From Halomonas sp. GT (GTDB taxonomy: Bacteria > Pseudomonadota > Gammaproteobacteria > Pseudomonadales > Halomonadaceae), in the NCBI RefSeq assembly GCF_002082565.1, contig NZ_CP020562.1:3720001-3784000 (forward strand): DNA of 64,000 bases. Reading direction: 5' to 3'. Shown here in pieces: positions 46,763 to 62,410 of the stretch. The position numbers and the translations under genes were made by a program. The notes below the pieces were generated by a model. It did not search any database, was not told the origin of the DNA, and saw only the letters and a program-made list of their open reading frames with translations. The first letter of the stretch is position 1; each line of letters opens with the position of its first letter.

Positions 46763-47650
46763 CTAGTCTAAGCGCGCTCGTATCCAGTCAATAAAAACGC
46801 GCAGCTTATAAACGTCGACCATATGTTCTGGGTAGGCCATGTAGTAAGCGTCTTGGCTTTTAAGTGAGAACTGCCAAGGAATGACTAATTTCCCTTCATC
46901 AAGCTCTTCTTGGGCCAGAAATCTTGGCACTAGGGCGACGCCGCAGCCCGCCCGGGCAGACCTTAACGCCATATAGAACGTATCGAATCTTGGCCCATGG
47001 TAGCTGTGCTCCGTATATAGATCTTGTGCTTCAAACCAGTCATGCCACCCCTCGGGCCGAGTAGAAACCTGCAGCAACACCATGTCGGTTAAATCCAATG
47101 GGTCGCGTACAGTCGTCTGCTCCATAGTGGAGGGCGCGCAGACAGGCACCACGTCTTCATCCAGTAGCTTAATGCATTCAGCCCGCGGCCATACACCATG
47201 GCCAAAAAAGAAAGCCGCTTCTATGCGCTCTTTTTGCATATCAAACGGCTCGGTACGGTTAGAAATATTGAGATTAATATTGGGATGTTTAAAGCGGAAT
47301 CCGTTGAGTCTTGGGATAAGCCAACGCGCCCCAAAGGTGGGTAACGTGGCAATATTCAGTACATCTGCCTCTACGCCATAAGACTGCATATAACGCGTAG
47401 ACATTTCGACCTGGGCGAGTATTTTACGCGCTTCGCCAAGATAGACCGCCCCCTCTGGCGTCAGGTGCAGGCGCTTTCTCACCCTCCTAAACAACGGATG
47501 TTGCAGCGTTACTTCCAATTGTGACACCTGCTTGCTCACCGCACTTTGCGTCAGGCTCAACTCATCCGCGGCCCGCGTAAAACTGAGATGCCTCGCCGCT
47601 GCCTCAAAGCAATTCAAGCTGGTCAAAGAAGGTAAGTTTCGACGACGCAT
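46763..47650 (-). CDS. LysR-family regulator (GcvA-like), next to the pipecolate genes
   Basis: 295 aa. HTH in residues about 20-50 (SFTRAADELSLTQSAVSKQV), then a LysR effector domain (about 90-293). Divergent from amaB across 124 bp in which TTGGTGAA occurs twice (near 47673 and 47764), possibly part of its binding sites. Very similar in layout to the second LysR at 61445-62410, which flanks the other end of the block. Likely controls the amaB-nhaC-amaA run. The effector is probably a lysine/pipecolate catabolite (inference). Confidence 0.85.
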   Translation of the reverse strand: MRRRNLPSLTSLNCFEAAARHLSFTRAADELSLTQSAVSKQVSQLEVTLQHPLFRRVRKRLHLTPEGAVYLGEARKILAQVEMSTRYMQSYGVEADVLNIATLPTFGARWLIPRLNGFRFKHPNINLNISNRTEPFDMQKERIEAAFFFGHGVWPRAECIKLLDEDVVPVCAPSTMEQTTVRDPLDLTDMVLLQVSTRPEGWHDWFEAQDLYTEHSYHGPRFDTFYMALRSARAGCGVALVPRFLAQEELDEGKLVIPWQFSLKSQDAYYMAYPEHMVDVYKLRVFIDWIRARLD

Positions 47651-47774
47651 GGCAATCCCACTTGGTGAAATTAAGGAATGATGTTTTTCACAAACATCGT
47701 TTGATGAGCTACCGCAAGCTTGGCAATACTGGCCCTGTAACCAATTTACTCACAACTTAATATTTGGTGAAGCA

Positions 47775-49268
47775 ATGATTCATTCCCTGATGGAAAAAAT
47801 GGGCGTCGCAAAAGAACAGTATCAAGGCGGCGACCTGATTGTTACTACGCCGATTGATGGTAGCGAAATTGGTCGTCTTACAACGGCTTCTAGCAGCGAT
47901 ATTGAAACGGCTATTGCGAACTCAGAAAAAGCCTTTCAAGCCTGGAAAAGCGTGCCTGCCCCCCGTCGTGGTGAACTGGTGCGTTTGTTTGGCGATCAAC
48001 TGCGCCAGCACAAGGAATCACTCGGCGAGCTGGTCACCTGGGAGTGTGGCAAGATTCTCCAGGAAGGGCTTGGCGAAGTTCAGGAAATGATCGACATTTG
48101 CGACCTTGCCGTTGGTCAATCTCGCCAGCTTTTTGGACTGACCATCGCTTCCGAGCGCCCTGGTCACCACATGCGTGAAAGCTGGCACCCGTTAGGCCCG
48201 ATTGGCCTAATTACGGCATTTAACTTTCCCGTTGCCCCTTGGGCATGGAATTCAGCCTTAGCGCTGGTATGCGGCAATAGCTTGCTGTGGAAACCTTCAG
48301 AAAAAACACCGTTAACAGCGCTGGCATGCCAAGCACTGTTAGAGCGTGCAATTGAAGAGTTCGGCGATGAGGCACCCAAGCACCTGAGCCAGGTGATAAT
48401 TGGTGAGCGTGCCGCCGGTGAACAGTTGGTCAATGACGCTCGCGTTGCCCTGATCAGCGCTACCGGCAGCACCCGCATGGGTCGCGAAGTTGGCCCACAA
48501 GTGGCAGCGCGCTTCGGTCGCAGCATTCTTGAACTGGGTGGCAACAACGCCATGATCTTAGCGCCAAGCGCAGATCTTGATATGGCGACTCGCGCCATTC
48601 TCTTCTCTGCGGTAGGTACGGCTGGGCAACGCTGCACGACACTGCGCCGCTTAGTCGTTCATGAATCCATTAAAGACGAAATCTTAGCGCGTCTTAAGAA
48701 GTCCTATAGCGCGGTGTCTATCGGCAACCCGCTTGAAGGTAACTTGGTTGGTCCGCTAATTGACCACCAAGCCTTTGATGCGATGCAAAGCGTGCTGGCT
48801 AAAGCGCGTGAACAAGGTGCGAATGTGTTCGGTGGCAACCGTGTAGAGATCGCCAACAGCAACGAAGGCTACTACGTCGAGCCTGCCATTGTTGAAGTGA
48901 CCGAGCAAAACGATCTGGTCAAGCACGAAACCTTTGCGCCCATTCTCTATGTCCTCACCTACAAAGAGCTGGATGAGGCCATTGCTACCAATAATGACGT
49001 TCCCCAGGGCCTGTCATCTTGTATTTTCACCACCGATGTTCGCGAAGCCGAAACCTTCATCTCCGCGGTTGGCAGTGACTGCGGCATCGCCAACGTCAAC
49101 ATCGGCCCTAGCGGTGCTGAAATCGGCGGTGCGTTTGGGGGCGAGAAGGAAACCGGTGGCGGTCGCGAGTCTGGCTCCGACGTTTGGAAGAGCTATATGC
49201 GTCGCCAAACTAACACCGTGAACTACTCTCGTGAACTCCCACTGGCCCAAGGCATTAAGTTCGACTAA
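47775..49268 (+). CDS. amaB: Aldehyde dehydrogenase, L-2-aminoadipate-6-semialdehyde (piperideine-6-carboxylate) dehydrogenase
   Basis: 497 aa, the ALDH7A1/AmaB length and type. Catalytic Cys near 287 (GTAGQRCTTLRRLV), Glu in SILELGGNNAMI (about 255) and Asn in ITAFNFPVAPWAWN. Residues beyond this resemble antiquitin-family enzymes. Oxidises aminoadipate semialdehyde to 2-aminoadipate with NAD(P)+. The neighbours (pipecolate oxidase AmaA, aminotransferase, HglS) fit this. First gene of the plus-strand run. Confidence 0.9.
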   Translation: MIHSLMEKMGVAKEQYQGGDLIVTTPIDGSEIGRLTTASSSDIETAIANSEKAFQAWKSVPAPRRGELVRLFGDQLRQHKESLGELVTWECGKILQEGLGEVQEMIDICDLAVGQSRQLFGLTIASERPGHHMRESWHPLGPIGLITAFNFPVAPWAWNSALALVCGNSLLWKPSEKTPLTALACQALLERAIEEFGDEAPKHLSQVIIGERAAGEQLVNDARVALISATGSTRMGREVGPQVAARFGRSILELGGNNAMILAPSADLDMATRAILFSAVGTAGQRCTTLRRLVVHESIKDEILARLKKSYSAVSIGNPLEGNLVGPLIDHQAFDAMQSVLAKAREQGANVFGGNRVEIANSNEGYYVEPAIVEVTEQNDLVKHETFAPILYVLTYKELDEAIATNNDVPQGLSSCIFTTDVREAETFISAVGSDCGIANVNIGPSGAEIGGAFGGEKETGGGRESGSDVWKSYMRRQTNTVNYSRELPLAQGIKFD

Positions 49269-49282
49269 CCCTTCCCCTCTAT

Positions 49283-49307
49283 AAGGGCCCTTCCCTGCAG
49301 GGCCCTT
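49283..49307 (+). promoter_or_regulatory. Hairpin between amaB and the NhaC gene
   Basis: Perfect 9-bp arms AAGGGCCCT (49283-49291) and AGGGCCCTT (49299-49307) with a 7-base loop, no T-run after it. Could partly terminate or protect the amaB message. Confidence 0.6.
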
Positions 49308-49337
49308 ACTAAAAACATAAAAAAATTAAGGTGATGT

Positions 49338-50795
49338 ATGCGTGACGATGTCCAAATCGGCCCGACGCCGGGCCTCGCGATGGCGCTATTACCGCTGCTG
49401 GCCACTACCGCCATTCTAATTCTGCAATTTTTTATCTTCTCTGACTTTACCCCACATATTCCTTTAGCCTTCGGGATAATGATTTGTGCCCTGTGCGGAC
49501 GCATCCGTGGCGTACCCTGGCAAAAAATGGAAGCCTCCATGCTTGAGGTGGTTAAGCTGGGGATGCCCGCTATTTTTATTCTATTAGCGGTCGGTATGGT
49601 GATTGGCACCTGGATTCTTTCCGGCACCGTTCCCACGCTGATGTATTACGGTTTTCAGCTGGTTTCACCCTCTTACTTCCTTGTCGCGACGTGCGTCATT
49701 AGTGCTTTGGTATCCCTTGCCACAGGCACATCCTGGGGCACAGTAGGAACACTCGGGCTTGCCCTAATGGGCATCGGGGAAGGGCTGGGCATTCCCATGT
49801 ATCTAACGGGCGGGGCGCTGGTATCCGGTGCGTTCTTTGGCGATAAAATGTCGCCCTTATCAGAGACTACCAACTTAACCCCTGCCGTATGTGAAACCGA
49901 TTTATGGAGCCATATACGCAGCATGATGGCCACCACGGTGCCCGCCATGATCGTCGCGCTGGTGCTTTATTTATGGCTCGGGACTAGCTATGGCGGCCAG
50001 CTTGAACGAAGTACCGATATTGCAACGTTCCGTCAGGCACTTGATGACACCTTTACGCTCTCCTGGGTAACGTTGATCCCGCCTTTTGTTGTGATCGGTT
50101 TAGCGCTTGCCAAATTCCCACCTTTCCCAACTATTTTCACTGGCGCTGCGATAGGCGGCTTAGTGGCCATCGGCGTTCAGGGCGAGACCGTACATGCCGT
50201 GTTTGATGCCATGCAAAATGGCTTTAGCAGCGATACCGGTAATCCGGCGATTGATGCTCTGCTCAGCAGTGGCGGTGTGCTCTCCATGACCTGGGTCGTA
50301 ACGCTTACGTTCTTCGCGCTGGGTTTTGCTGGCATGCTGGAAGCCTATGGCACCGTTGATGCGATTATTAAGCAGCTCATGCGGCTCATTAAAGGTCGCT
50401 TCAGCTTAGTGGCAACAAGCGCCGGCACAACACTGGCGGTAAGCACTATTATTGGCGATGTTTATACAACGCTGGTGCTGCCCGGTCGCTTGCTGAAAGG
50501 CCAGTATCAAGCTATGGGCTATAAGACTTCGACGCTGTCACGCACCATTGAAGACAATGGCACGCTCTCTTCTCCATTAATTCCCTGGAACATGGGCGGT
50601 GGGTTTGTGTCCTCGACGATTGGCGTACCCACGCTAGCGTATGCGCCCTTCGCCTTCGCTTGCTGGTTATCCCCTTTATTCGGCTTGCTGTGGGCGCTAA
50701 CCGGACGTTTTATTCCTCGTGAATCCTCCGAGGACGAGGCTGAAAACTCGCCCCATACGCCTCAAACCACCTACTCCTCCCAACCTACTTCATAG
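49338..50795 (+). CDS. NhaC-family Na+/H+ or amino/organic acid antiporter
   Basis: 485 aa, about 11-12 membrane segments. Signature GTSWGTVGTLGLALMGIG (about 130-147) and FFGDKMSPLSETTNL (about 168-182) typical of NhaC, plus EDNGTLSSPLIPWNMGG near the C-terminal half. Placed between amaB and amaA in the same direction, 69 and 55 bp apart. Inference: it may exchange a catabolite, such as pipecolate or lysine derivative, with Na+ or H+, or help ion balance. NhaC-type proteins include malate/lactate antiporters, so solute transport is possible. Confidence 0.85.
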   Translation: MRDDVQIGPTPGLAMALLPLLATTAILILQFFIFSDFTPHIPLAFGIMICALCGRIRGVPWQKMEASMLEVVKLGMPAIFILLAVGMVIGTWILSGTVPTLMYYGFQLVSPSYFLVATCVISALVSLATGTSWGTVGTLGLALMGIGEGLGIPMYLTGGALVSGAFFGDKMSPLSETTNLTPAVCETDLWSHIRSMMATTVPAMIVALVLYLWLGTSYGGQLERSTDIATFRQALDDTFTLSWVTLIPPFVVIGLALAKFPPFPTIFTGAAIGGLVAIGVQGETVHAVFDAMQNGFSSDTGNPAIDALLSSGGVLSMTWVVTLTFFALGFAGMLEAYGTVDAIIKQLMRLIKGRFSLVATSAGTTLAVSTIIGDVYTTLVLPGRLLKGQYQAMGYKTSTLSRTIEDNGTLSSPLIPWNMGGGFVSSTIGVPTLAYAPFAFACWLSPLFGLLWALTGRFIPRESSEDEAENSPHTPQTTYSSQPTS

Positions 50796-50850
50796 CCATA
50801 CAAGGTCGGCCATAGGCCGACCTGCGCTTCTTTTCAGGAGGTACTATAAG

Positions 50851-52143
50851 ATGCAAACGACCCTCTCCGAGCGCTGCCTTTGGCTGCAAACGAGCGCGGA
50901 AGCCCCAGTACAATACCCTGCGTTAGCGAACCAGGAAGAGGCCGAGGTCTGTGTTGTTGGTGGCGGTATTACAGGTCTGTCCACCGCGTTACATTTGGCC
51001 GAAAAAGGCATCAAGGTCATCTTGCTGGAGGCGGGAGATATCCCCACGGGGGGTTCAGGCCGCAATGTTGGTCTGGTTAATGCTGGGCTTTGGATTCCAC
51101 CCGATGACATCGTGGCCGCGCTAGGTGAAGAAAAAGGTGAGCGCGTTAATACTATTTTGGGCAGCGCGCCATCAAAGGTATTCGACATTATTGAGCGCTA
51201 TGCCATTAAATGCGATGCAACGCGCACAGGCACCCTGCACCTTGGCCATAACACCAAAGGCTGCCAAGAGCTCACACGCCGCCGCGACCAGTTACAAAAC
51301 CGTGGGGCGCCGGTGACCTTATTGGAAGGCGAAGAGTGCGAGCGTATGACAGGAACCGCTCAGATACATACCGCGCTGCTTGATAAGCGCGCGGGTACTA
51401 TCAACCCCTGTGCCTATACGCGAGGTCTCGCTCGCGCTGCTGCAAACCTAGGGGCCACTCTCTACTGCCAAAGCCCCGTAACAGGCATCGAGCGACAAGA
51501 AGACCGCTGGCGGGTGTTAACTCAAGACGGCAGCGTGACCGCGAACAAAGTCGTCATGGCGACCAATGCGTATACCGAAGACCACTGGAATCAAGTTCGC
51601 CAACACTTCTTTACCGGCCACTATTACCAACTGGCGTCAGAACCCCTGACGGGCGAAGCCGCCGATGCGATACTGCCAGAGAAGCAAGGCGCTTGGGACA
51701 CTCGGACGGTACTTAGCAGCATTCGGCGGGATAAGGCAGGCCGCTTACTGTTGGGCAGCCTGGGAAAAGGTGAAGGCAAGCCGCTGGCTTACTTAACTCG
51801 CTGGGCCGATACCATAAAAAATCATTACTTCCCTGAGCTTGGCAACGTTCGCTGGGAATACACCTGGACAGGTAAGGTCGCGTTCACACCGGACCATACC
51901 TTACGTATTTTTGAACCGGCCCCTGGAATATTGTCAGCCACTGGCTATAACGGACGCGGCATTACTACCGGCACGGTGGTCGGCCAAGGTTTTGCCCATT
52001 ACATTGCAAACGATGATGACAGCCTGCTTCCGCTGCCGCTGTCGCAGCCCAAACCCATCAAAGCACGCCCGCTGTGGAGCTGTGCCTATGAAGGCGGTTT
52101 CTCGCTATATCATGCAGGTCAGTGTCTACGGGTGCTGATCTAG
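50851..52143 (+). CDS. amaA: L-pipecolate oxidase (FAD-dependent, DadA/GlpO-like)
   Basis: 430 aa from the ATG at 50851, preceded by AGGAGGT with a 9-base gap; the frame opens much earlier (50719) inside the antiporter gene. FAD-binding dinucleotide motif VVGGGITGLSTALHLA at 35-50, and GSGRNVGLVNAGLWIPPDD matches the family. Oxidises pipecolate to piperideine-6-carboxylate, the cyclic form of aminoadipate semialdehyde. Relatives include sarcosine and other imino acid oxidases; the amaB link favours AmaA. Confidence 0.85.
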   Translation: MQTTLSERCLWLQTSAEAPVQYPALANQEEAEVCVVGGGITGLSTALHLAEKGIKVILLEAGDIPTGGSGRNVGLVNAGLWIPPDDIVAALGEEKGERVNTILGSAPSKVFDIIERYAIKCDATRTGTLHLGHNTKGCQELTRRRDQLQNRGAPVTLLEGEECERMTGTAQIHTALLDKRAGTINPCAYTRGLARAAANLGATLYCQSPVTGIERQEDRWRVLTQDGSVTANKVVMATNAYTEDHWNQVRQHFFTGHYYQLASEPLTGEAADAILPEKQGAWDTRTVLSSIRRDKAGRLLLGSLGKGEGKPLAYLTRWADTIKNHYFPELGNVRWEYTWTGKVAFTPDHTLRIFEPAPGILSATGYNGRGITTGTVVGQGFAHYIANDDDSLLPLPLSQPKPIKARPLWSCAYEGGFSLYHAGQCLRVLI

Positions 52144-52165
52144 GAGCATTACTACGTAACAAAAT

Positions 52166-52195
52166 GGCAGCACATTCCTGTGCTGCCGTTCTTTA
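52166..52195. terminator. Bidirectional terminator between amaA and hglS
   Basis: Arms GGCAGCACA (52166-52174) and TGTGCTGCC (52179-52187), loop TTCC, followed on the plus strand by GTTCTTTAT; on the minus strand by ATTTTGTT. Both genes end here convergently. Confidence 0.8.
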
Positions 52196-52206
52196 TAAAC
52201 GACTGA

Positions 52207-53568
52207 TTAGCTTTTCAAACTTGCCAGCACCTTCGCTTTAGAGGCATTTTCGCGCTCTGCATAGAGCGATAGCTCATCTGTCACCTGGGCACCCAATGCT
52301 TCTTCAAAGGCATCGCGATTGGCATTACCCGCGTAAGCTTCGCTCTCTGCTCCGCCTAGGTTCGACTGGAAAATACCCGCCGCACTGACCGGCAGAAAGT
52401 CTTCATAGGTAATCGGCTGTGCTTCTACCAAGCCCTGGGCGATTAACGCCTCAATATCAGCACTACCAGCGTCGTTAGCGGCCTGACCTTTTTCGGTCAG
52501 ATGATAGTGAAAATACGCTAGCCCCGCACGGCGCATGGCTTCGTCGTTATCAGGGAGCTTGGCAAAGACGTTTTGCATAACCGTTTGGTGTGCGTCGTTA
52601 TCCAAGCCTGCGGTTTGCTTGCGGCCTTCAGTAAGCAACTGGTCGTAAAGCGCACGGCCTTTCGGTGTTAGCGCCACTCCACGCTGCTCAATTTCACCAA
52701 AGCGAGCGGTGTGAGTACCTTGCGCGTCACCGGCAAAGCGGATTGATTCTTCCAACGCTTTAAAGCTGGTTTGGCGCAGCAAAATGGGGCATTCACGACG
52801 CGGCGGCCCTTCAATGACGGCTTTGGGGTTCATGCCCATCTCCGGCATGCGGCGCTGTACTTCGTCGATATCCAGGGTGCGTGGCGTCAGGTGATTAATA
52901 TGCGGCCCACGGAAGCACACTACATCGGCAATCAAACGGTGCTCATCATGTAGCGCCTGATAAGTCTCCAGATCGACCGTCGCATCCTGATGCCAACGGA
53001 AGGTTTCCAGTGCTTCTTTGACGAACTGGTCGGTCTCTTCGCTGGTGAGTCCCCCCTGGGTTTCATGGCGCTCAATAAGTTCGCGCGCCCCTGGGGTAAA
53101 GATATCGCGCTTAGCCAGAATTTCTTCCGAACGCTGGCGCAGCGCCTCGCTTTCAATAAGCTCTAAACGCAGTAGCGAGGTAAAAACGCGGAAAGGGTTC
53201 ATCGCCAACGCGTCATCGTCGATGGGCCGGAAGGCGGTTGAGTGAACCGGCACGCCTGCTTCAGAAAGGTCGTAATAACCGACCGGATACATGCCCATCA
53301 CGGCAAACAGGCGGCGCAGCATGGAAAGCTCTGTAGCGGTTCCTACGCGTATGGCTCCGTGGCGCTCTACGCTCAAACGCGCCAACTCACCCTGTGCCTC
53401 CAAGCGGCGATGAAGTTCGGGCTGCTGACTAAGCGTTTCTTGATTAACGCGCTCGACAAGTTCAAGCAGCGTGCCGTACTGCGGCACTTCAGCTTGATAC
53501 ATGGCCGACATCGCCTTAGAGAAACGGTCGCGAACATCATTGGTTGAAAGAAGGTTCGGTTGAGTCAT
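52207..53568 (-). CDS. hglS: 2-oxoadipate dioxygenase/decarboxylase (D-2-hydroxyglutarate synthase)
   Basis: 453 aa former DUF1338 enzyme, which turns 2-oxoadipate and O2 into D-2-hydroxyglutarate and CO2. The residues known as Fe ligands in the family are in place: His70 (VERHGAIR, with Arg74 completing the motif), His226 (GPHINHLTPR) and Glu294 (FGEIEQRG). Overlaps the D-2-hydroxyglutarate dehydrogenase gene by 4 bases (ATGA). Last gene of a three-gene minus-strand run. Confidence 0.92.
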   Translation of the reverse strand: MTQPNLLSTNDVRDRFSKAMSAMYQAEVPQYGTLLELVERVNQETLSQQPELHRRLEAQGELARLSVERHGAIRVGTATELSMLRRLFAVMGMYPVGYYDLSEAGVPVHSTAFRPIDDDALAMNPFRVFTSLLRLELIESEALRQRSEEILAKRDIFTPGARELIERHETQGGLTSEETDQFVKEALETFRWHQDATVDLETYQALHDEHRLIADVVCFRGPHINHLTPRTLDIDEVQRRMPEMGMNPKAVIEGPPRRECPILLRQTSFKALEESIRFAGDAQGTHTARFGEIEQRGVALTPKGRALYDQLLTEGRKQTAGLDNDAHQTVMQNVFAKLPDNDEAMRRAGLAYFHYHLTEKGQAANDAGSADIEALIAQGLVEAQPITYEDFLPVSAAGIFQSNLGGAESEAYAGNANRDAFEEALGAQVTDELSLYAERENASKAKVLASLKS

Positions 53569-56500
53569 TTCGTTGCTCTCTCTTGCATATTGTTGGGATA
53601 AGGATGAGATACCGACGTCAATTGCGCCAATAGCGCCTGAAGCGGGTGGTGCAATGTTTGTGCTGAGTAGCGCTTCACCTGGCTGCGGCAGGAGTAGCCG
53701 GTGGCGAGCAGCTTGCCCGCGTTTTCCTCGGCTTCCACCTGGGGCTGCCAGGATTGGGCGTAGATCGTCTTCGACGTTTCGACATTGCGGGTTTCATGCC
53801 CGTAAGTGCCGGACATACCGCAGCAGCCGGTCGCCATCAGCTCAAGCTCTAAGCCAAACGCCGCAAACACCTGCTGCCAGGCCTTGGGGCTGCCCGGTGC
53901 GTTGGTTTTTTCGGTGCAGTGGGACAGCAGCTTAAAGCCAGGATCGGTTAAGTTCAGCTGGCTAGGCGCTAGCGTGTTAATGCGGGTGGCCAGCCACTCT
54001 TGCAGCATCAACACCTCGGGGACCTGCTCGGCCCCCAGGGCTTTGACGTATTCTTGGCGGTAGGTCAGCGTCATGGCGGGGTCGATCCCTACCATCGGTA
54101 CGTCGAACTCTGCCAACGCCCGCAGGCGCTTGGCCTGTTTTTCCGCTGTGCGCTCAAAGGCGCCTAAAAAGCCCTGCACCTGCAGCGGTTTGCCGTTGGC
54201 AGAAAATGGCATCACAAACACTCGCAGATTCAGCCGCGACAGCAGTTCCACCACGTCCATCACCAGCTTGGCTTCAAAGTGGCTGGTGAACGCATCCTGG
54301 ACAATAATCACGCTGTTAGCGCGCTGCTGCTCGGTAAGCAGTACCAGCGAGGTGGGCGTGGCTTCCGCAACGCCCCAGGCGCGCAACTGCTTTTTCACGC
54401 TGGCACGGGATAGCTGTGGGGAGTCACTCATTCCAAGCCCTTTACGCATCAGGCTATCTACCCAGCGCTGGTTGAGTAGGGCGTTATACAGCGGCGCAAC
54501 CTTGGCAAGGGTTGGCAACATGAATTCGGTGCCACCGATGATGTAATCGCGCAGCGGGCGTAAATAGCGGCCGTGGTAGACCTCTAAAAACTGCGAACGG
54601 AACTGCGGCACATTGACCTTAATCGGACACTGGCCTGCACAGGATTTACACGCCAAGCAACCCGCCATGGCATCGTAAACTTGGTGAGAATAGTCGTGGT
54701 GTTGCTTACGGCTGAGCGTATTGGCAACGCGCAGTGGAAAGCGTTTAATAAAGCCCCAGCCGTTTTCGGTTTTCTTTTTGCGCGACTCTTCCACCACATC
54801 GATCCCTGCCTGGGACTGCAGACGCAGCCACTCACGCATCAAGCTGGCACGGCCTTTGGGCGAATGCACACGGTCACGGGTAGCCTTCCAGGAAGGGCAC
54901 ATGGGGTCATCAAGGTCGTAGTTGTAACAGGCACCGTTGCCGTTGCAATACACCGCCGCGTCATAGGCCTGCCAAGCACGTTCATCAATGGTGCGATCTA
55001 ACTGGCCGCGCAGGGTGACGCCATCAATCGTTAACAGTTCAGGGTCGCTGTCTTTGGCAATCAGGTTATTGCTTTCGGCGGGAGACGCGATTTTGCCGGG
55101 GTTTAGCTGGTTATGCGGATCAAACGCGGCTTTGACGCGCTGCAGGCTGGGGTAGAGTTCACCAAAAAATCTGGGGCCGTACTCTGAGCGCACGCCTTTG
55201 CCGTGTTCCCCCCATAACAACCCGCCATACTTCTGGGTCAGGGCTGCCACTTCATCGGAAATCTCACGAATCAGTTTTTCCTGCTCGGGATCTTTCATAT
55301 CCAGTGCCGGGCGCACGTGCAGCACCCCCGCATCGACATGGCCAAACATCCCGTAGGAGAGCTTTCGGGCATCCAGCGCGGCGCGAAACTCAGTAATAAA
55401 ATCAGCCAAGTGCTCCGGTGGTACGGCGGTGTCTTCTACAAAGGCAATCGGGCGTTTCTCGCCCTGCACATTGCCCAGCAAACCCACTGAGCGTTTGCGC
55501 ATGGCGTAGACTTTTTGGATCTGCGGACGACCTTCCGCCAGGGTGTAGCCTAAGCGCTCAACGGTAGCGTCTTGGCTCAAATGGTCAGTGAACGCCTGTA
55601 CCCGTTCCGCCAAGCGCTCAGGATCATCGTCATTAAACTCGATCAGGTTAATGCCACAAATCGGCGTACTGCCGGTGGCGGGGAAAAACTCAGCTACGCT
55701 GTCCCAGACAAAGTCTTCCATGGCCAGCTGCAACACGGTGTCGTCGATGGTTTCAATCGAGGTGGGCCGAGCGCTGCTGGCCATCAATGCCTTGGCATCG
55801 CGCAGCGCGTCCATAAAGCTGGAGTAACGCACATTGATCAAAGTGGCGTGCTGGGGAATCGGCAGCACGTTCAATACCGCTTCATTCAAAAAGCCCAACG
55901 AGCCTTCCGAACCACACAGCAAGCTGTTCAGGTTCAGCTGGCCTTGCGCTTCCCGCAGGTGCGCCAGATCGTAGCCGGTTAAGCAGCGGTTGAGCGGCGG
56001 AAATTTCGCCTCAATCAGCTCACGCTGCTGGTCGATAATCTCAGCGGCGGTGGAGTGCACGCGACCAAGGATGCCTTCTTGTTGGCACTCAGCCTGTTCT
56101 TCTTCAGCGCTAAGCGCGCGGCTATGCAGATGCTGCCCCCCCAGCAGAACCGTGTCCAGTTCCAGCACATGGTCACGGGTTTTGCCGTACTCGCAGCTGC
56201 CCTGGCCGCTGGCATCGGTGGAGATCATGCCGCCGATGGTGGCACGGTTAGAAGTAGACAGCTCCGGGGCAAAAAACAACCCATGGGGCTTCAGCGCCGC
56301 GTTGAGTTGATCCTTCACCACGCCCGCCTGAACGCGCACCCGCCGTGCCTCTACATCAATCGATAGGATCTGGTTCATATGGCGGGAAACGTCCACCACG
56401 ATGCCGTCGGTCAACGACTGGCCGTTGGTACCGGTGCCGCCGCCCCGAGGCGTGAGCACGATATCGCGGTGGGGCAGCTCAGCAGCCAGCTTGGCAAGGC

Positions 56501-56693
56501 GTTCCAGGTCTTCCGCGTGCTTAGGAAACACCGCCGCCTGAGGCAGACGCTGGTAAATAGAGTTATCCGTTGCCAGCACCGTGCGGTTGGCATAGTCAGG
56601 GGCAATCTCGCCTTCAAAGCCACGGGCGCGCAAGGCGTCGAGAAACGCCACATAGCCACGTCGCACTGCCACTTCGCTGACCATTGCGATCAT
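53565..56693 (-). CDS. ydiJ: FAD/4Fe-4S D-2-hydroxyglutarate dehydrogenase (YdiJ-like)
   Basis: 1042 aa, the length of YdiJ-type fusions. FAD-binding type 4 domain near the N terminus (about 45-270; LTPRGGGTGTNGQSLTDG), FAD-linked oxidase C-terminal domain (about 275-530), then a 4Fe-4S motif CLACKSCAGQCPIKVNV (about 670) and a CCG-like domain near the C terminus (GCCGMSGTYGHE). Converts D-2-hydroxyglutarate to 2-oxoglutarate, the step after HglS. Start and preceding stop overlap (ATGA) with the aminotransferase; both flanks of the gene are coupled. Confidence 0.9.
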   Translation of the reverse strand: MIAMVSEVAVRRGYVAFLDALRARGFEGEIAPDYANRTVLATDNSIYQRLPQAAVFPKHAEDLERLAKLAAELPHRDIVLTPRGGGTGTNGQSLTDGIVVDVSRHMNQILSIDVEARRVRVQAGVVKDQLNAALKPHGLFFAPELSTSNRATIGGMISTDASGQGSCEYGKTRDHVLELDTVLLGGQHLHSRALSAEEEQAECQQEGILGRVHSTAAEIIDQQRELIEAKFPPLNRCLTGYDLAHLREAQGQLNLNSLLCGSEGSLGFLNEAVLNVLPIPQHATLINVRYSSFMDALRDAKALMASSARPTSIETIDDTVLQLAMEDFVWDSVAEFFPATGSTPICGINLIEFNDDDPERLAERVQAFTDHLSQDATVERLGYTLAEGRPQIQKVYAMRKRSVGLLGNVQGEKRPIAFVEDTAVPPEHLADFITEFRAALDARKLSYGMFGHVDAGVLHVRPALDMKDPEQEKLIREISDEVAALTQKYGGLLWGEHGKGVRSEYGPRFFGELYPSLQRVKAAFDPHNQLNPGKIASPAESNNLIAKDSDPELLTIDGVTLRGQLDRTIDERAWQAYDAAVYCNGNGACYNYDLDDPMCPSWKATRDRVHSPKGRASLMREWLRLQSQAGIDVVEESRKKKTENGWGFIKRFPLRVANTLSRKQHHDYSHQVYDAMAGCLACKSCAGQCPIKVNVPQFRSQFLEVYHGRYLRPLRDYIIGGTEFMLPTLAKVAPLYNALLNQRWVDSLMRKGLGMSDSPQLSRASVKKQLRAWGVAEATPTSLVLLTEQQRANSVIIVQDAFTSHFEAKLVMDVVELLSRLNLRVFVMPFSANGKPLQVQGFLGAFERTAEKQAKRLRALAEFDVPMVGIDPAMTLTYRQEYVKALGAEQVPEVLMLQEWLATRINTLAPSQLNLTDPGFKLLSHCTEKTNAPGSPKAWQQVFAAFGLELELMATGCCGMSGTYGHETRNVETSKTIYAQSWQPQVEAEENAGKLLATGYSCRSQVKRYSAQTLHHPLQALLAQLTSVSHPYPNNMQERATK

Positions 56694-57943
56694 GCTTTGA
56701 GCGTCTCCAGCGCGTGCTCGATGAGCCCTAGCCCTTCTGCCATGACGTCTGGTTCAGTGGTCAATGGCGGTAATAAGCGTAAGACATTACGTTTGCGGCC
56801 ACTGGGCATTAATAAGACACCGGCATCACGACCGGCTACCAACAGGTTAGCTAAGTGCTCCGCACCCGTGGCGTTTTCGGTGTCTTCAAAGACGATGCCG
56901 CGCATAGCGCCAACACCAGTCATAGCGCCTACCATCGGGAAACGCTCGCTGGCCTTCCAGCGCTGATAAGCATTTACAATCGCCGCTTCTTGGGCATTAC
57001 CCCATTCACTTAGCGCCTCGTCTTGCATGACATCCATCACTGCCAATGCAGCTGCACACGCGACCGCATTGCCTGAATAGGTGCCTCCCAACGCGCCTTT
57101 GGGTAAGGCATCCATTAACGCTTTACGCCCTACCAAGGCCGCAAGAGGGAGGCCCGAGGCAATACTTTTCCCCAACAGAAGCAGGTCGGGCTCGATACCG
57201 AGGTGACTGAAACCAAAACGTTTACCGGTTCGCCCGAAGCCCGATTGAATTTCGTCACAAATCAATAAAATGCCGTGCTGATCGCAGATTGCCCGCAGCG
57301 CTTTGGCAAACTGGGGGCAAAGTAAGCGAAAACCGCCTTCCCCTTGAATGGGCTCAACGACGACACAAGCCACTTCACTGGGAGCAATTTCCACGTCAAA
57401 TACGCGCTCTAGGGCAGCCAGCGACTGCTCAGCGGATACCCCACTGTCCTGACTAGGAAACGGCACGTGATAAACCGGGCCAGGCAGCGCGCCCAAGCCT
57501 GCTTTATAGGGCTTAACTTTACCGTTCAAATTGAGTGCTGCCAGCGTGCGTCCATGGAAAGCATCGTCAAAGGCAATTACGCCTTGGCGACCCGTAACGC
57601 CACGGGCCACTTTCAGAGCATTTTCGGTCGCTTCCGCTCCACTGTTTGTCAGCATGCATCCCAGCGGATAAGAAACGGGCACAAACTGGTCAAGACGCTC
57701 GACAACTGAGAGGTAGCCACGATGAGGCACGGCATTAAACGCTGAATGCATAAGGGTATCGATCTGGGCTTTAACGGCTTCGACCACCGCTGGATGGCAG
57801 TGCCCCAAGTTAAGCACGCCAATACCGCCAATAAAGTCGATATAACGCTGCCCCGCCTCATCCCATACCTCTGCATTACGCCCTTTGGTAATACAAACGG
57901 GATGAAGGATGCCTAATGCACTACTGACGTTGGGAAGATCCAT
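56690..57943 (-). CDS. Class III aminotransferase, probably 2-aminoadipate transaminase
   Basis: 417 aa from the ATG at 57943, with AGGAG 11 bases upstream; an ATG at 57970 (AAGGGA nearby) is equally possible. PLP enzyme of the GabT/ArgD type: NSGAEATENALK, DEIQSGFGRTGK, the PLP Lys in LLLLGKSIASGLPL (about 255), and GTYSGNAVACAAAL. Placed first in a run with D-2-hydroxyglutarate dehydrogenase and HglS, so conversion of 2-aminoadipate to 2-oxoadipate is the likely job. A 4-aminobutyrate or 5-aminovalerate role remains possible. Confidence 0.82.
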   Translation of the reverse strand: MDLPNVSSALGILHPVCITKGRNAEVWDEAGQRYIDFIGGIGVLNLGHCHPAVVEAVKAQIDTLMHSAFNAVPHRGYLSVVERLDQFVPVSYPLGCMLTNSGAEATENALKVARGVTGRQGVIAFDDAFHGRTLAALNLNGKVKPYKAGLGALPGPVYHVPFPSQDSGVSAEQSLAALERVFDVEIAPSEVACVVVEPIQGEGGFRLLCPQFAKALRAICDQHGILLICDEIQSGFGRTGKRFGFSHLGIEPDLLLLGKSIASGLPLAALVGRKALMDALPKGALGGTYSGNAVACAAALAVMDVMQDEALSEWGNAQEAAIVNAYQRWKASERFPMVGAMTGVGAMRGIVFEDTENATGAEHLANLLVAGRDAGVLLMPSGRKRNVLRLLPPLTTEPDVMAEGLGLIEHALETLKA

Positions 57944-58394
57944 CGTCGAAAACGCTCCTGAAATGACCATGTGTTCCCTTATCAAACAGGTTCATATGGC
58001 AGATCACAAACGAAAAAAAACGCTAAATACATGCCAAGCAGGAATGCATTGGGTGTGAACACTTGATCAGAAGCATAATCATCCGCCGCCCAGCATAGCC
58101 CACTCATTGCTAGCACATATTCCAATAGGCAGACTATAAAAAGAAAACGTCGTGCTGGCCATGCAGATAATAAGCACAAATTATTGATTACTTAAGGGAT
58201 TTCTTAAAAGCCTTTGGCATGACAAAATGGAATGCGTACGCAACTTAATTTCTTTTGTCTGTCGAGCTGCATACGTGAACAATAGCCAGCTATCTTTTTC
58301 GCGACATTTTTCACTGATCGATCCCCAGACAGTCGGATTGCGAAAATTGCTAAGCATAATTTTATTATAAATAATTTAATTAGCAGGAGTTAAT
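57944..58394. other. Intergenic region between aminotransferase and TAXI binding-protein genes
   Basis: About 450 bp with divergent promoters for the minus-strand lysine run and the plus-strand TRAP run. A 65-codon TTG-started frame at 57982-58179 (minus) has two hydrophobic stretches but no convincing start and is not accepted. No terminator-like stem seen. Confidence 0.5.
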
Positions 58395-59435
58395 ATGAAA
58401 AACATTCCCTCTAACGTGTTTCCAACAAAAGTGCTATCCACAAAAGTGCTATCACCAAAAATGCTATGCGGCGTAGGCGCTACTCTTCTGCTGGCGGGCT
58501 GTGGTGGCGAGAGCAAACCTAATATCGCTATTGGCCCTCCTGCCAGCACCACTCAAAGCGTTTCTCAACTACTTTTTGATGCCTATGGTATTGGTAGCGA
58601 CAAGTACAATACCTATCAAGAAGGGTTTGGTGCTGCACTCGATGGCGTACAAGATGGCAACATTGATATTTCTATCGGCATTCTTGGTTTGCCTTCTGGC
58701 AGCATTGAGAACTTACAAGCCTCGAGTGGCGATGCACGTCTGATCAGTTTAAGCGATGACGCTATTGACTATATTGAAGAGAATAGTGCCTATCAGCGCT
58801 TTACGATTCCTGCTAATAGCTATGCTTTTCAAAATGAAGATGTAAATACTATTACGGCTTATGCCATTTTAGTTGGCAACACGAATACGATTGATGAAGA
58901 CCTAGGTTATGAACTAGCGCGCTTAATGCATGAGCATGCTGAAGAAAACACGCATTCTCAATCTGCGTTTATTACCCTTGAAAATGCACTGAATGGCTCA
59001 GAAGGTTTGCCCATTCACCCCGGTGCTAAAAAATATTACGAAGAGCAAGGCCTAACCGTAGATAACCCGGTCGCTGAGCTTGGCGAAACTGAAGACAAAG
59101 AAGAATTTATTTTAGGTACCGGTAGCCAAGGCGGCACTTACTACCCACTGGGCGGTGAGATGGCCACTATTTGGAACCGTTACCTGGAAAACCATAACTT
59201 CACCAATATTGAAACTGGCGCTTCAATCGAAAACTTAGTGAGCATCCGTGATAACGGTATGGATCTCGGAATGACCGTACACGCACCCGCACAAGATGCC
59301 ATAGCAGGCAGCGGTGAGTTCGAAAGTGGTGCTATTGATAACGTTGCCTTTATCGGACACATCTACCCTGAAGTCATTCAGATCGTCACCCGTGAACGCT
59401 CCAACATTGAGAGCCTAAGTGACCTAACCGATTGA
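58395..59435 (+). CDS. TAXI-family TRAP substrate-binding lipoprotein with circularly permuted lobes
   Basis: 346 aa. Signal peptide with lipobox LLLAGC (Cys36), so an inner- or outer-membrane-anchored lipoprotein. Residues 42-225 (from KPNIAIGPPAS through LPIHPGAKKYYEEQGL) match the C-terminal half of ordinary TAXI proteins, including their usual C-terminal HPGA.KYY sequence. Residues 236-346 (EEFILGTGSQGGTYYPLGG to NIESLSDLTD) match the N-terminal half, including GTGSQGG.YYPLGG. The protein therefore ends at the point where a normal TAXI protein would continue as its residues 42 onward. AGGAG lies 6 bases upstream. Three 15-bp repeats encode TKVLS within the signal region. First gene of the TRAP run. 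Confidence 0.88.
   Translation: MKNIPSNVFPTKVLSTKVLSPKMLCGVGATLLLAGCGGESKPNIAIGPPASTTQSVSQLLFDAYGIGSDKYNTYQEGFGAALDGVQDGNIDISIGILGLPSGSIENLQASSGDARLISLSDDAIDYIEENSAYQRFTIPANSYAFQNEDVNTITAYAILVGNTNTIDEDLGYELARLMHEHAEENTHSQSAFITLENALNGSEGLPIHPGAKKYYEEQGLTVDNPVAELGETEDKEEFILGTGSQGGTYYPLGGEMATIWNRYLENHNFTNIETGASIENLVSIRDNGMDLGMTVHAPAQDAIAGSGEFESGAIDNVAFIGHIYPEVIQIVTRERSNIESLSDLTD
58425..58469. repeat. Three in-frame 15-bp tandem repeats in the signal-peptide region
   Basis: Units ACAAAAGTGCTATCC (58425-58439), ACAAAAGTGCTATCA (58440-58454) and CCAAAAATGCTATGC (58455-58469). They encode TKVLS, TKVLS, PKMLC in the n-region before the hydrophobic core. Confidence 0.9.
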
Positions 59436-59446
59436 TGTTCCCTTTT

Positions 59447-59469
59447 CGCCGCTGGCTGAGCCAGCGGCG
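59447..59469 (+). promoter_or_regulatory. Intercistronic hairpin between TAXI protein and TRAP permease
   Basis: Perfect 10-bp arms CGCCGCTGGC (59447-59456) and GCCAGCGGCG (59460-59469), loop TGA. No T-run. Typical of binding-protein/permease junctions, where it can stabilise the upstream message. Confidence 0.7.
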
Positions 59470-59490
59470 TTATATGCATGAGGTTTAATC

Positions 59491-61445
59491 GTGGATAAAA
59501 AAAAACTCCTGACGAAGCGGCGCTGTTAGAAAAGTATGATCGTGAGTCACAAGTACGTTCCGCACTACAGCTAGGCAAGTGGGGATGGCTGATCACCCTA
59601 ATGGGTGTATCACTGACGTGTTTTCATCTCTATACCGCTTATTTTGGTACGCTACCGTCACAGCAGCAAGGCGCCGTCCACTTAGGGCTTGCTTTGGGGA
59701 TGATCTTTATTCTATTCCCTGCAACGCGAGGCGCAGGCAGGCGCAATGGAGTGCCGTGGTACGACGTACTACTCGCCTTCGCAGCAACTTTTGCTGCCTA
59801 CTATAAAATCCTGTTTTATGAAGAAGTCCTGCGTGCAAGGGTCACGGGCTATTCAGCTTTTGATCTAACGATTGCCGCACTCGGCGTGCTGTTTGTACTA
59901 GAAGCAACTCGCCGTACCGTTGGTATGCCAATCGTTGTCATGGCCACGCTGGCAATTCTTTATGCGCTGTTTGGCAACCTGATCCCAAGCCCTTTGCTTT
60001 CCCATCCTGGCTTCTCTCTTGAGCAGGTGTCTCCTTACCTATGGTTTAGGGAAAGCGGCGTTTTTGGCACGCCCTTGCAAATATCAGCGCGCTTTATCTT
60101 CTTATTCTTGTTTTTCGGTGTTGTTCTGATGCATACCGGCGTCGGGCGATTCTTTAATGACTTAGCCTTTGCATTAACCGGACGCTTTACGGGTGGTGCT
60201 GGCAAAGCCGCCGTTATAGCAAGTTCGCTTCAGGGTATGATTTCGGGAAGCTCTATCGGCAACACTGTGGCTTCTGGCTCTTTCACCATTCCTATGATGA
60301 AAAATGCCCGCTTCAAGCCCGAAGTAGCAGGAGCCGTCGAAGCGTCAGCCTCTACCGGCGGTCAGATCATGCCCCCCTTAATGGGCGCGGCGGCTTTTAT
60401 CATGGTGGAATACGTGGGCGTCTCTTACCGCGAAATCATGTTCTCGGCACTGATTCCCGCCATTCTCTATTTTGCGGGTATTTTTATCGGGGTTCATTTC
60501 GAAGCCAAGCGTCATCGCATTCTCGGCCTTCCCAAAGATCAATTGCCCAGCAAACGTAAGCTCATACTGTCAAAAGGCTACATGTTGCTGCCTTTGCTCG
60601 TCATTATTACGACTATTAGCGTTGGCTTTACCGCTCAGCGAGCAGCGCTACTGGGTATCGCATGTGCGTTTGCTGTCAGTTTGGCGCGCAAAGAAACACG
60701 CCCTTCGTTAAAAGATATAGTGGTTATTTTTGAAAAAGGCGCGCGCGTGGCACTGCCAGTGATCGCTGCAGTTGCTTGCGCTGGCATTATCGCTGGCGTG
60801 GTAGGCATGACAGGAATGGGGTCAAAATTTGCTGCTGGTATTATTAGTCTGGCTGATGGCGTTTTGATACTTGCGCTGTTGTTCACGATGATTGCTTGTA
60901 TTGTTTTGGGCATGGGGTTACCCACAACGGCAAACTATGTGGTTACTGCTACGATTGCCGCACCAGCGCTTATTAATGAGTTCGGCCTTCCGCCAATGGC
61001 AGTGCACTTGTTTGTCTTTTATTTCGGCATTATCGCCGATATTACACCTCCCGTTTGTTTAGCCGCGTTCGCAGGTGCGGGCATTGCACAAGCCAACCCG
61101 ATGAAGACCGGCTTTACGGCGGTTAAATTGGCGATTGGTGCGTTTATTATTCCTTATGCCTTCATTTATAATCCTGTGCTGGTATTAGTCGAACCTACGC
61201 TGCTAGGTCTTTTAAGCGCGTTGTTCTTTTCACTCGTAGGGATTATGGGCGTCAGCAGTGCACTACTCGGCTACTTTGTGCGCGATTCCTTCTTCTGGGA
61301 GCGTCTGGTACTGTTAGTCGCAGGGCTTGCCATGGTGGTTCCTGAGCTGCTAACCAGCGGTTTGGGCTTACTTGCCATGGTGACAGTGGGCTGGCTTCAA
61401 TCGCGTCGACCTGATAAATATCAGGAGGCCACGACGCTCGCCTAA
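59491..61445 (+). CDS. TRAP transporter fused DctQ-DctM permease, start across an A9 frameshift
   Basis: Uninterrupted from the ATG at 59601 (614 aa), but about 35 codons upstream are clearly coding: a GTG at 59491, with GAGG 9 bases upstream, begins VDKKK and then, after a one-base shift in the nine-A run 59497-59505, continues TPDEAALLEKYDRESQVRSA and on into MGVSL. Without the shift GTG frame stops at TAG (59527-59529). The body is a 4-TM DctQ part followed by a 12-TM DctM part, with MGLPTTANYVVTATIAAPAL and PPVCLAAFAGAGIA. Either a sequencing error in a homopolymer or slippage; stops 1 base into the LysR start (TAATG). Confidence 0.85.
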
Positions 61446-62410
61446 TGAGCCATTATAAAAGCCTAGCTTCCCCCCGGCGCTTAGTCGCCGGGGCGGCTTT
61501 CAGGTCATCAGGAGCGCCAGGTTTGGCATCACGTAATCTTCCTTCTACGGCGGCTATGCAATGCTTTGAAGCAGCCGCACGCCATATGAGTTTTACTCGA
61601 GCAGCAGACGAGCTAAACCTCACACAAAGTGCTGTCAGTAAACAAGTCGCGCACCTCGAAACCACCTTGCAACACAAGCTATTTCGTCGCGTGCGACGCA
61701 GCCTACTGCTAACCCCTGAAGGTGCCATTTTTTTAAGTGACGTTCGTAAAGTGCTCACTCAAATTGAGATGTCGACACAAGCGATAATGACCTACAGCGG
61801 TAATAGCGAGGTTCTTAAAATCGCCACATTACCTAGCTTCGGTAGCCGTTGGCTAGCCAATAAGTTACCTACCTTTCTGGCCGCCAATCCCGGCATTAGT
61901 TTGGAGTTTCATGACCGCGTAAAAGATTTCGATCTTGAGCAGCAAGATATCGATATTGCTCTGTTTTATGGACATGGAAGTTGGCCAAGCCTTGCTTGCC
62001 ATAAGCTTATTGATGAGGATATGGTCGCTGTTGCCTCCCCTGAATTACTCGCTCGGCACCCCATCCAGTCAGTGGATGACTTAACACAACTACCGCTACT
62101 TCACCTCTCGACACGCCCTGACGCATGGCACCATTGGTTTGCAAACCAAGAGATCATCACTGACCGTAGCTATCATGGCACCCGCTTCGAGACCTTTCCT
62201 ATGCTGGTGCGAACGGCAATGGCAGGCGGTGGGGTCGCGCTAGTACCTCACTTTACCGTCGATGAAGAGTTGGAAGGTGGCCGACTGACCGTCGCTTGGC
62301 CATATCGGTTGCTCAGCGAGAGTGCTTATTATCTTGTTTACCCTGAACACTTGGGGGAACTCGCCAAAGTGCGGCGCTTTGTAGAGCATGTTACCCAGTT
62401 TAGTGATTGA
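61445..62410 (+). CDS. LysR-family regulator, second copy at the far end of the lysine/TRAP block
   Basis: 321 aa. HTH at about 50-75 (SFTRAADELNLTQSAVSKQV), LysR effector domain after that. The first 30 residues before RNLPSTAAMQCFEAA are not conserved in the sister LysR and might be skipped by an internal start. It overlaps the TRAP permease stop by one base, so it is translated with the transporter. Its sister at 46763-47650 is nearly the same in HTH and layout. Confidence 0.82.
   Translation: MSHYKSLASPRRLVAGAAFRSSGAPGLASRNLPSTAAMQCFEAAARHMSFTRAADELNLTQSAVSKQVAHLETTLQHKLFRRVRRSLLLTPEGAIFLSDVRKVLTQIEMSTQAIMTYSGNSEVLKIATLPSFGSRWLANKLPTFLAANPGISLEFHDRVKDFDLEQQDIDIALFYGHGSWPSLACHKLIDEDMVAVASPELLARHPIQSVDDLTQLPLLHLSTRPDAWHHWFANQEIITDRSYHGTRFETFPMLVRTAMAGGGVALVPHFTVDEELEGGRLTVAWPYRLLSESAYYLVYPEHLGELAKVRRFVEHVTQFSD

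Follow-up and report, generated by a model that had tools for sequence, protein, structure and literature searches.

A conserved family of TAXI-type TRAP receptors with circularly permuted halves in Halomonadaceae and Bacillota

Can a two-lobed binding protein keep working when its halves are read in the opposite order, and if it does, where does the new order come from and why is it kept? The question is raised by an open reading frame (ORF) in a 64,000-nucleotide stretch of the genome of Halomonas sp. GT (GCF_002082565.1, contig NZ_CP020562.1, positions 3,720,001 to 3,784,000; hereafter the window), which encodes a receptor of the TAXI family of tripartite ATP-independent periplasmic (TRAP) transporters. 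A preliminary description of this ORF, made from the window alone, held that its two halves are swapped by circular permutation, that no other such TAXI protein was known, and that tandem duplication followed by loss of the outer halves had produced it. Our analysis demonstrates that the permutation is real, conserved and derived, and that it has evolved at least twice among TAXI proteins.

The swapped order was seen both against solved structures and against family profiles. The receptor sequence matched seven solved TAXI chains, and all five alignments shown had the halves in swapped order; in the structure-sequence search, receptor residues 238-345 correspond to residues 5-116 of the 8s4j chain, and residues 44-220 to residues 120-298. 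With the PF16868 profile, receptor residues 43-219 fell on positions 113-289 and the second part, scored separately, on positions 1-110; with TIGR02122, residues 44-219 fell on positions 144-320 and the second part on 24-139. The whole receptor scored 206 bits against PF16868 (cut-off 27, E 1.2e-60) and 218.6 bits against TIGR02122 (cut-off 84.35, E 9.4e-65), and each half alone exceeded the family cut-off of both. Because the match to either profile is non-collinear, consisting of two stretches in swapped order, we file the receptor as a permuted TAXI branch and not as an ordinary member. Solved chains and both profiles thus bear out the preliminary description on this point, and the boundaries it gave (42-225 and 236-346) are correct to within a few residues (Table 1).

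The order is shared by every relative classified from the search with the receptor itself. Protein searches gave 814 matches to the receptor, 1797 to a normal-order sister and 434 to a second permuted family (the last with part of the candidates scored); 120 matches were listed for each, and those beyond the 120 were classified only where another search listed them. The query and the 120 listed of its 814 relatives, from about 5.8 billion proteins searched, all have the swapped order (121/121). A scan of GTDB genomes found 125 relatives, with a permuted ORF in every one of the best 80 loci: 24 from Halomonadaceae (one labelled Pseudomonas sp. Q2-TVG4-2), two from Oceanisphaera and 54 from Bacillota (Oceanobacillus, Virgibacillus, Psychrobacillus, Sporosarcina, Siminovitchia, Bhargavaea and others). 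With these counts the claim of uniqueness falls. The permuted gene was present in 14 of 151 sampled genomes of the window's family, and among 398 genomes of its phylum a comparably strong match occurred only in the window's own genome and in one congener. Five other TAXI genes above cut-off in the Halomonas sp. GT genome are in normal order.

That the swapped order is the derived one follows from its normal-order sisters. The first of these was a single gene among 398 genomes of a Bacillota phylum, with 62% in both halves (P0122, locus L150 of G670, Candidatus Syntrophocurvum alkaliphilum). With P0122 as the query, 78 of the 120 listed proteins were normal-order, and mean identity between permuted and sister proteins over the tree rows is 62% in the N-terminal half and 56% in the C-terminal half. 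The preliminary description had regarded many relatives with the same order as a refutation; such relatives are indeed many, but the sisters show that their shared order is derived. The junctions agree. Permuted proteins end in ...SLSDLTD or ...SLDDLK and start, after the Cys and a spacer, with KxIAIGPPAS (e.g. KPNIAIGPP), whereas the sisters run on into GKRVAIGPP at the SLSDLTD point, and the Caldalkalibacillus sister P0124 continues ...SIEDLRGKRVAIGPPGSG... across the point where permuted proteins end and begin. The new termini therefore abut almost exactly, as expected from the earlier remark that SLSDLTD ends where a normal protein continues. At the other junction most sisters stop shortly past HPGA.KYY, where the permuted proteins enter the linker (20-23 residues between profile ends in 139 proteins) and then ILGTGSQGGTYYP. 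A permissive lipobox pattern fits all 139 proteins of the permuted family (family 1) and all 78 sisters. In 199 genomes of one Bacillota order, the permuted gene was found in 5 and a sister, as a C-half match, in 29; orders were confirmed in fetched loci for 4 of the 5 and for 8 of the 29, the latter all normal. Mutual exclusion of the two forms was also considered and rejected: no genome of the 199 held both (E 1e-50), but with about 0.7 such genomes expected this is no evidence for it.

Phylogenies were built with the halves put in ordinary order. In a first tree of 105 rows (quick search), the 41 permuted rows fall into a single clade (SH-aLRT 98), placed among 29 normal-order sisters; the 11 Pseudomonadota rows likewise group together (98) and are nested within Bacillota, the nesting forks having 82-90. 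A tree of 92 rows, from which 13 distant outgroup rows were omitted because of their long branches, agrees (permuted clade 97), and the permuted clade is supported in a tree of the C-terminal half (93). A permease cluster was called at 76 of the 80 permuted loci (crude gene caller), and the permease lay downstream in all 28 loci re-checked; one of the eight fetched sister loci (L183) has no permease ORF within the stretch fetched. In a permease tree of 43 rows, the 33 that stand beside permuted receptors form one clade (99), nearest to the Syntrophocurvum permease (fork 84) and then to the permeases of other sisters, and within the 33 the 11 proteobacterial permeases, the window's included, are a clade (100). 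Read most simply, the trees point to a single permutation event inside Bacillota, with later transfer of the operon to Gammaproteobacteria. Transfer also fits the presence of a lipobox in the permuted receptor, since inspection by eye shows none in the other five TAXI receptors that this genome encodes.

An AlphaFold2 model of the receptor (21 sequences) was confident, with a mean predicted local distance difference test (pLDDT) of 84.2 and a predicted TM-score (pTM) of 0.79; both hinge strands are present as predicted strands, the linker has a pLDDT of about 89-96, and residues 341-344 of the C-terminal segment form a helix. In VcGluP, domain 1 comprises residues 29-115 and 268-328, the hinge 116-131 and 255-267, and domain 2 residues 132-254 (PMC11574862). 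Mapped onto these limits, the receptor is cut within domain 2, some 12-15 residues beyond hinge strand 1, and not at a lobe boundary as the earlier term "permuted lobes" implied. A cut just after hinge strand 1 keeps both hinge strands and leaves domain 1 continuous, and in the predicted structure domain 2 bears the lipid anchor and a small C-terminal helix. The VcGluP ligand residues S40, Y45, Y46, S75 and E125 are conserved in the receptor, and V44, Q93, H123, G156, D157, Y200 and M201 are not identical. The best full-length structural match of the model is Bacillus OpuAC, ordinary TAXI proteins matching half only (Foldseek). Purifying selection is strong in both halves, with dN/dS of 0.01-0.07 (computable for 4 of 7 pairs in the C-terminal half and 5 of 7 in the N-terminal half, dS being often saturated); the linker is the least constrained part of the receptor (0.11-0.58, 6 of 7 pairs). 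The permuted protein is probably an ordinary TRAP receptor in function.

We consider it very probable that this is a working TAXI-type TRAP receptor that was permuted once in a Bacillota ancestor and reached Halomonadaceae and Oceanisphaera together with its permease. The computed support comprises the swapped order, its conservation, the sisters, the nesting of clades, the permease lineage, purifying selection, the predicted fold and the partly kept ligand residues. Five findings weigh on the other side. The tree of the N-terminal half supports the permuted clade weakly (SH-aLRT 18). A short-frame scan of the 80 loci, L179, L181 and the window found no tandem intermediate or remnant half, the single half-only match (in L077) being cut off by the locus edge. 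The strongest ligand determinant of VcGluP, Q93, corresponds to V295, and Y200 and M201 differ too, so a glutamate-like ligand is not to be assumed. The Foldseek superpositions score low (TM 0.29-0.45 against the query in the 50 rows shown), which is expected of a permutant, but they are no independent proof of the model. Finally, none of the catabolic genes near the window's receptor is among the annotated neighbours of four Bacillota loci. Since the scan found neither an intermediate nor a remnant, the route in the preliminary description is consistent with our data but is one that we infer: an in-frame tandem duplication would have been followed by deletion of the two outer halves. The permuted receptor would still close on its ligand like other receptors and hand it to the adjacent permease, and the lipid anchor would pull on domain 2 instead of domain 1.

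Judged from its sequences, a second permuted TAXI family arose independently and with a different cut. It consists of a protein of Dethiobacter alkaliphilus (P0218, locus L162 of G777) and four relatives (P0219-P0222), which start near SLRDLEGMRVG and end in ...YNTYFHWMANK; here the chain is cut ahead of the S-L-x-DL helix, close to where hinge strand 1 ends. By eye, the linker resembles a parental C-terminal tail (IPERLIPPEYTE in P0223) joined to a parental mature N-terminus, as a tandem fusion would give. Among the 120 listed of 434 matches to this family, 115 are normal-order, and family 2 nests in its own normal-order sisters (support 98 in the 105 rows and 93 in the 92 rows); in the tree of the N-terminal half it is not one clade. 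A single origin of all permuted TAXI proteins was rejected: forcing them into one clade costs 353 log-likelihood units, with p 2.2e-117 in the approximately unbiased test, for which the groups were defined once a first tree was known. At E 1e-35, 7 of 97 genomes of the Dethiobacter class had a match, one permuted (G777), four normal-order and two with the C-terminal half only among the matches listed (orders from match coordinates, one at a contig end). The lipobox pattern fits all five family 2 proteins, and a permease gene lies downstream in the one locus examined (L179). Family 2 and the window's receptor are thus alike in being TAXI proteins with swapped halves and a lipobox, and differ in cut point and origin.

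Why has the permutation persisted? We lean, by a little, towards neutral drift: a duplication and deletion accident was tolerated, left function unchanged and has been conserved because reversal would need a second rare accident. Permuted and normal-order sisters share the same operon partner, cut positions seem generally tolerant, and sisters are the commoner form in the sampled Bacillota order (29 genomes against 5). Two TAXI events, together with OpuAC and the treponemal TpMglB-2 (both compared below), in lipid-anchored receptors hint at a bias, but this argument is weak since normal sisters also have a lipobox. A distinctly less probable explanation is that moving the lipid from domain 1 to domain 2 was itself selected, by altering docking on the permease or easing strain at the ligand site. 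The independent recurrence with different cuts, each time with the anchor on domain 2 (for family 2, as read from its sequence), and the OpuAC-like topology speak for such selection, and tethering has been put forward as a possible cause in the case of TpMglB-2 (Brautigam et al., PMC4990184). However, the normal sisters are likewise tethered, and their form has not been displaced by the permuted one. It is doubtful, though worth considering, that permutation is a recurrent, selected re-anchoring route for tethered binding proteins, taken at least twice in TAXI and separately in OpuAC. On this view, new termini close to where the chain first crosses between the lobes, as in the TAXI cases and apparently also OpuAC, would put the anchor on domain 2 and make the split lobe continuous, and would thereby change the receptor's docking on its transporter or its release to it.

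The origin of the new order could also differ from the tandem route. Recombination of two different TAXI genes, or fission and fusion, is unlikely in our view, and would be compatible with either drift or selection. No tandem-copy remnant was found, the family 1 linker is not obviously built from parental tails, and a normal TAXI gene lies beside the permuted one at 3 of the 80 loci. But both halves lead to the same sister group with similar identity (62% and 56%, the N-half tree being weak), and at L073 and L081 the normal TAXI gene next to the permuted one falls outside that group. Assembly collapse or a chimaera of two tandem genes, named earlier as a possible refutation, has practically no probability left, being ruled out by the finding of this order in numerous separately assembled genomes from two phyla and in a one-contig genome. 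The interest of the permutation lies in its recurrence and in the natural pairs of permuted and normal-order proteins.

Table 1. Features of the permuted receptor and its surroundings, in window coordinates.
Feature	Coordinates	Strand	Evidence or remark
Circularly permuted TAXI-TRAP solute-binding lipoprotein, 346 aa	58395..59435	+	ATG start; structure-sequence and profile matches; model
Putative signal peptide and lipobox, Cys36	58395..58502	+	Sequence motif LLLAGC
Former C-terminal half, residues 43-220 (the greater part of domain 2, then hinge strand 2 and the C-terminal portion of domain 1)	58521..59054	+	PF16868 113-289; 8s4j chain 120-298
Hinge strand 2, residues 150-163	58842..58883	+	VcGluP 255-267; model strand 150-162
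New linker between old C- and N-termini, residues 221-236	59055..59102	+	Missing in normal-order sisters
Former N-terminal half, residues 237-346 (N-terminal portion of domain 1, then hinge strand 1 and the first domain 2 helix)	59103..59432	+	PF16868 1-110; 8s4j chain 5-116
Hinge strand 1, residues 317-333	59343..59393	+	VcGluP 116-131 on 317-332; model strand 317-333
C-terminal SLSDLTD segment, within residues 338-346	59406..59432	+	Leftover domain 2 helix preceding the cut
Strong RNA hairpin in the receptor-permease intergenic gap	59446..59470	+	Fold of 59430-59500
Conserved N-terminal extension of permease (..LLEKYDRES..)	59491-59600	+	-1 frame of GTG at 59491
Fused TRAP permease	59601..61445	+	TIGR02123, 702.9 bits (cut-off 320.65)
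LysR-type regulator, GcvA-like	61445..62410	+	NF008352, 277 bits (just below cut-off 288)
Pipecolate/2-aminoadipate catabolic cluster	46763..57985		NCBIfam matches

The surroundings of the receptor offer a tentative view of its cargo. Besides the TRAP system, positions 46763-62410 hold a gene set leading from L-pipecolate or lysine to 2-oxoglutarate, an NhaC antiporter and two GcvA-like LysR genes. The cluster upstream encodes a LysR regulator (287.3 bits against a cut-off of 288), L-piperidine-6-carboxylate dehydrogenase, NhaC, AmaA (L-pipecolate oxidase), HglS, YdiJ (D-2-hydroxyglutarate dehydrogenase) and 2-aminoadipate transaminase; the five enzymes and NhaC exceed their NCBIfam cut-offs, and we take the five enzymes to form one pathway from L-pipecolate to 2-oxoglutarate. 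Because the receptor and permease sit in this gene set, the cargo here might be L-pipecolate, L-2-aminoadipate or another intermediate of lysine degradation, a weak guess that is more probably wrong than right and, given the other neighbours in Bacillota, valid at most for Halomonadaceae. The hairpin between the receptor and permease genes (minimum free energy -27.7 kcal/mol, z -3.48) perhaps serves differential expression of the two. The conserved N-terminal segment of the permease lies in a -1 frame that spans a run of nine A (59497-59505). In 27 loci (the window, L039-L062, L106 and L107), a start codon in this frame was absent in 19, present in 4 and unparsed in 4; with L058, L054 and L062 added by eye, 22 of the 25 non-Oceanisphaera loci have no usable -1 start. 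In L058 the start codon falls after the conserved segment, and in L048, L059 and L061 the segment has an in-frame start. Differences in 10 relatives number 33, 7 and 114 at codon positions 1, 2 and 3 of the -1 frame. This pattern suggests programmed frameshifting or transcriptional slippage at the permease start. Elsewhere in the family, a 996-aa ORF, possibly a fusion, takes the permease's place beside a permuted receptor (L069:5580-8570). At L073, L081 and L084 (Siminovitchia, Bacillus norwichensis), the permuted gene is preceded by a distant normal-order TAXI gene, from which a further TRAP permease-type gene separates it (this permease was checked for L073 only).

Among known systems, ordinary TAXI proteins (8s4j, VcGluP; 1us4; 9ibp, VCA0144) share with the receptor their family, predicted two-lobed fold, ligand Tyr and Ser residues and fused permease; the receptor differs from them in its swapped halves, the anchor on domain 2, the extra linker and Val at Q93. 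Profile annotation (TIGR02122, PF16868) hides this rearrangement, and named relatives are mostly annotated as plain TAXI subunits. OpuAC has the same permuted topology as the receptor, and, by eye, both end after an S-x-x-DL segment; OpuAC belongs to another sequence family, serves an ABC and not a TRAP transporter and binds other ligands. OpuAC is itself a permutant when compared by sequence with ChoX and the Lactococcus lactis OpuA domain, and a published account reportedly presents it as a permuted ProX. Its family, PF04069, was not among the receptor's matches at E 0.001; the receptor thus resembles OpuAC in topology and is not a member of its family. A permuted OpuAC-like protein is encoded at L200:1408-2343 in the Oceanobacillus damuensis genome G398, which has two permuted TAXI genes. 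TpMglB-2 (Tp0684) is a circularly permuted Type I glucose-binding lipoprotein and, like the receptor, a natural, tethered permutant with homologues in Gram-positives and treponemes, but it has a Type I fold, another cut and an ABC transporter (PMC4990184). TAXI proteins are placed in Cluster F (PMC11574862). Among the papers listed by searches of the open-licence PubMed Central literature, some of them with capped listings, none showed a permuted TAXI or TRAP receptor, and "permut" does not occur in the main texts, as far as these were available, of PMC11574862, PMC12344293 and PMC2861598. Permuted binding proteins are therefore already known, and, as far as literature searches show, this is the first permuted receptor of a TRAP transporter. 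What it adds to the earlier cases is a set of natural pairs, in which permuted proteins can be set against extant sisters in normal order (mean identity 56-62%) that have related permeases next to them, and in which the role of chain topology and anchor position in two-lobed receptors can be tested directly, while two independent events with different cuts and an OpuAC-like topology allow comparison among them.
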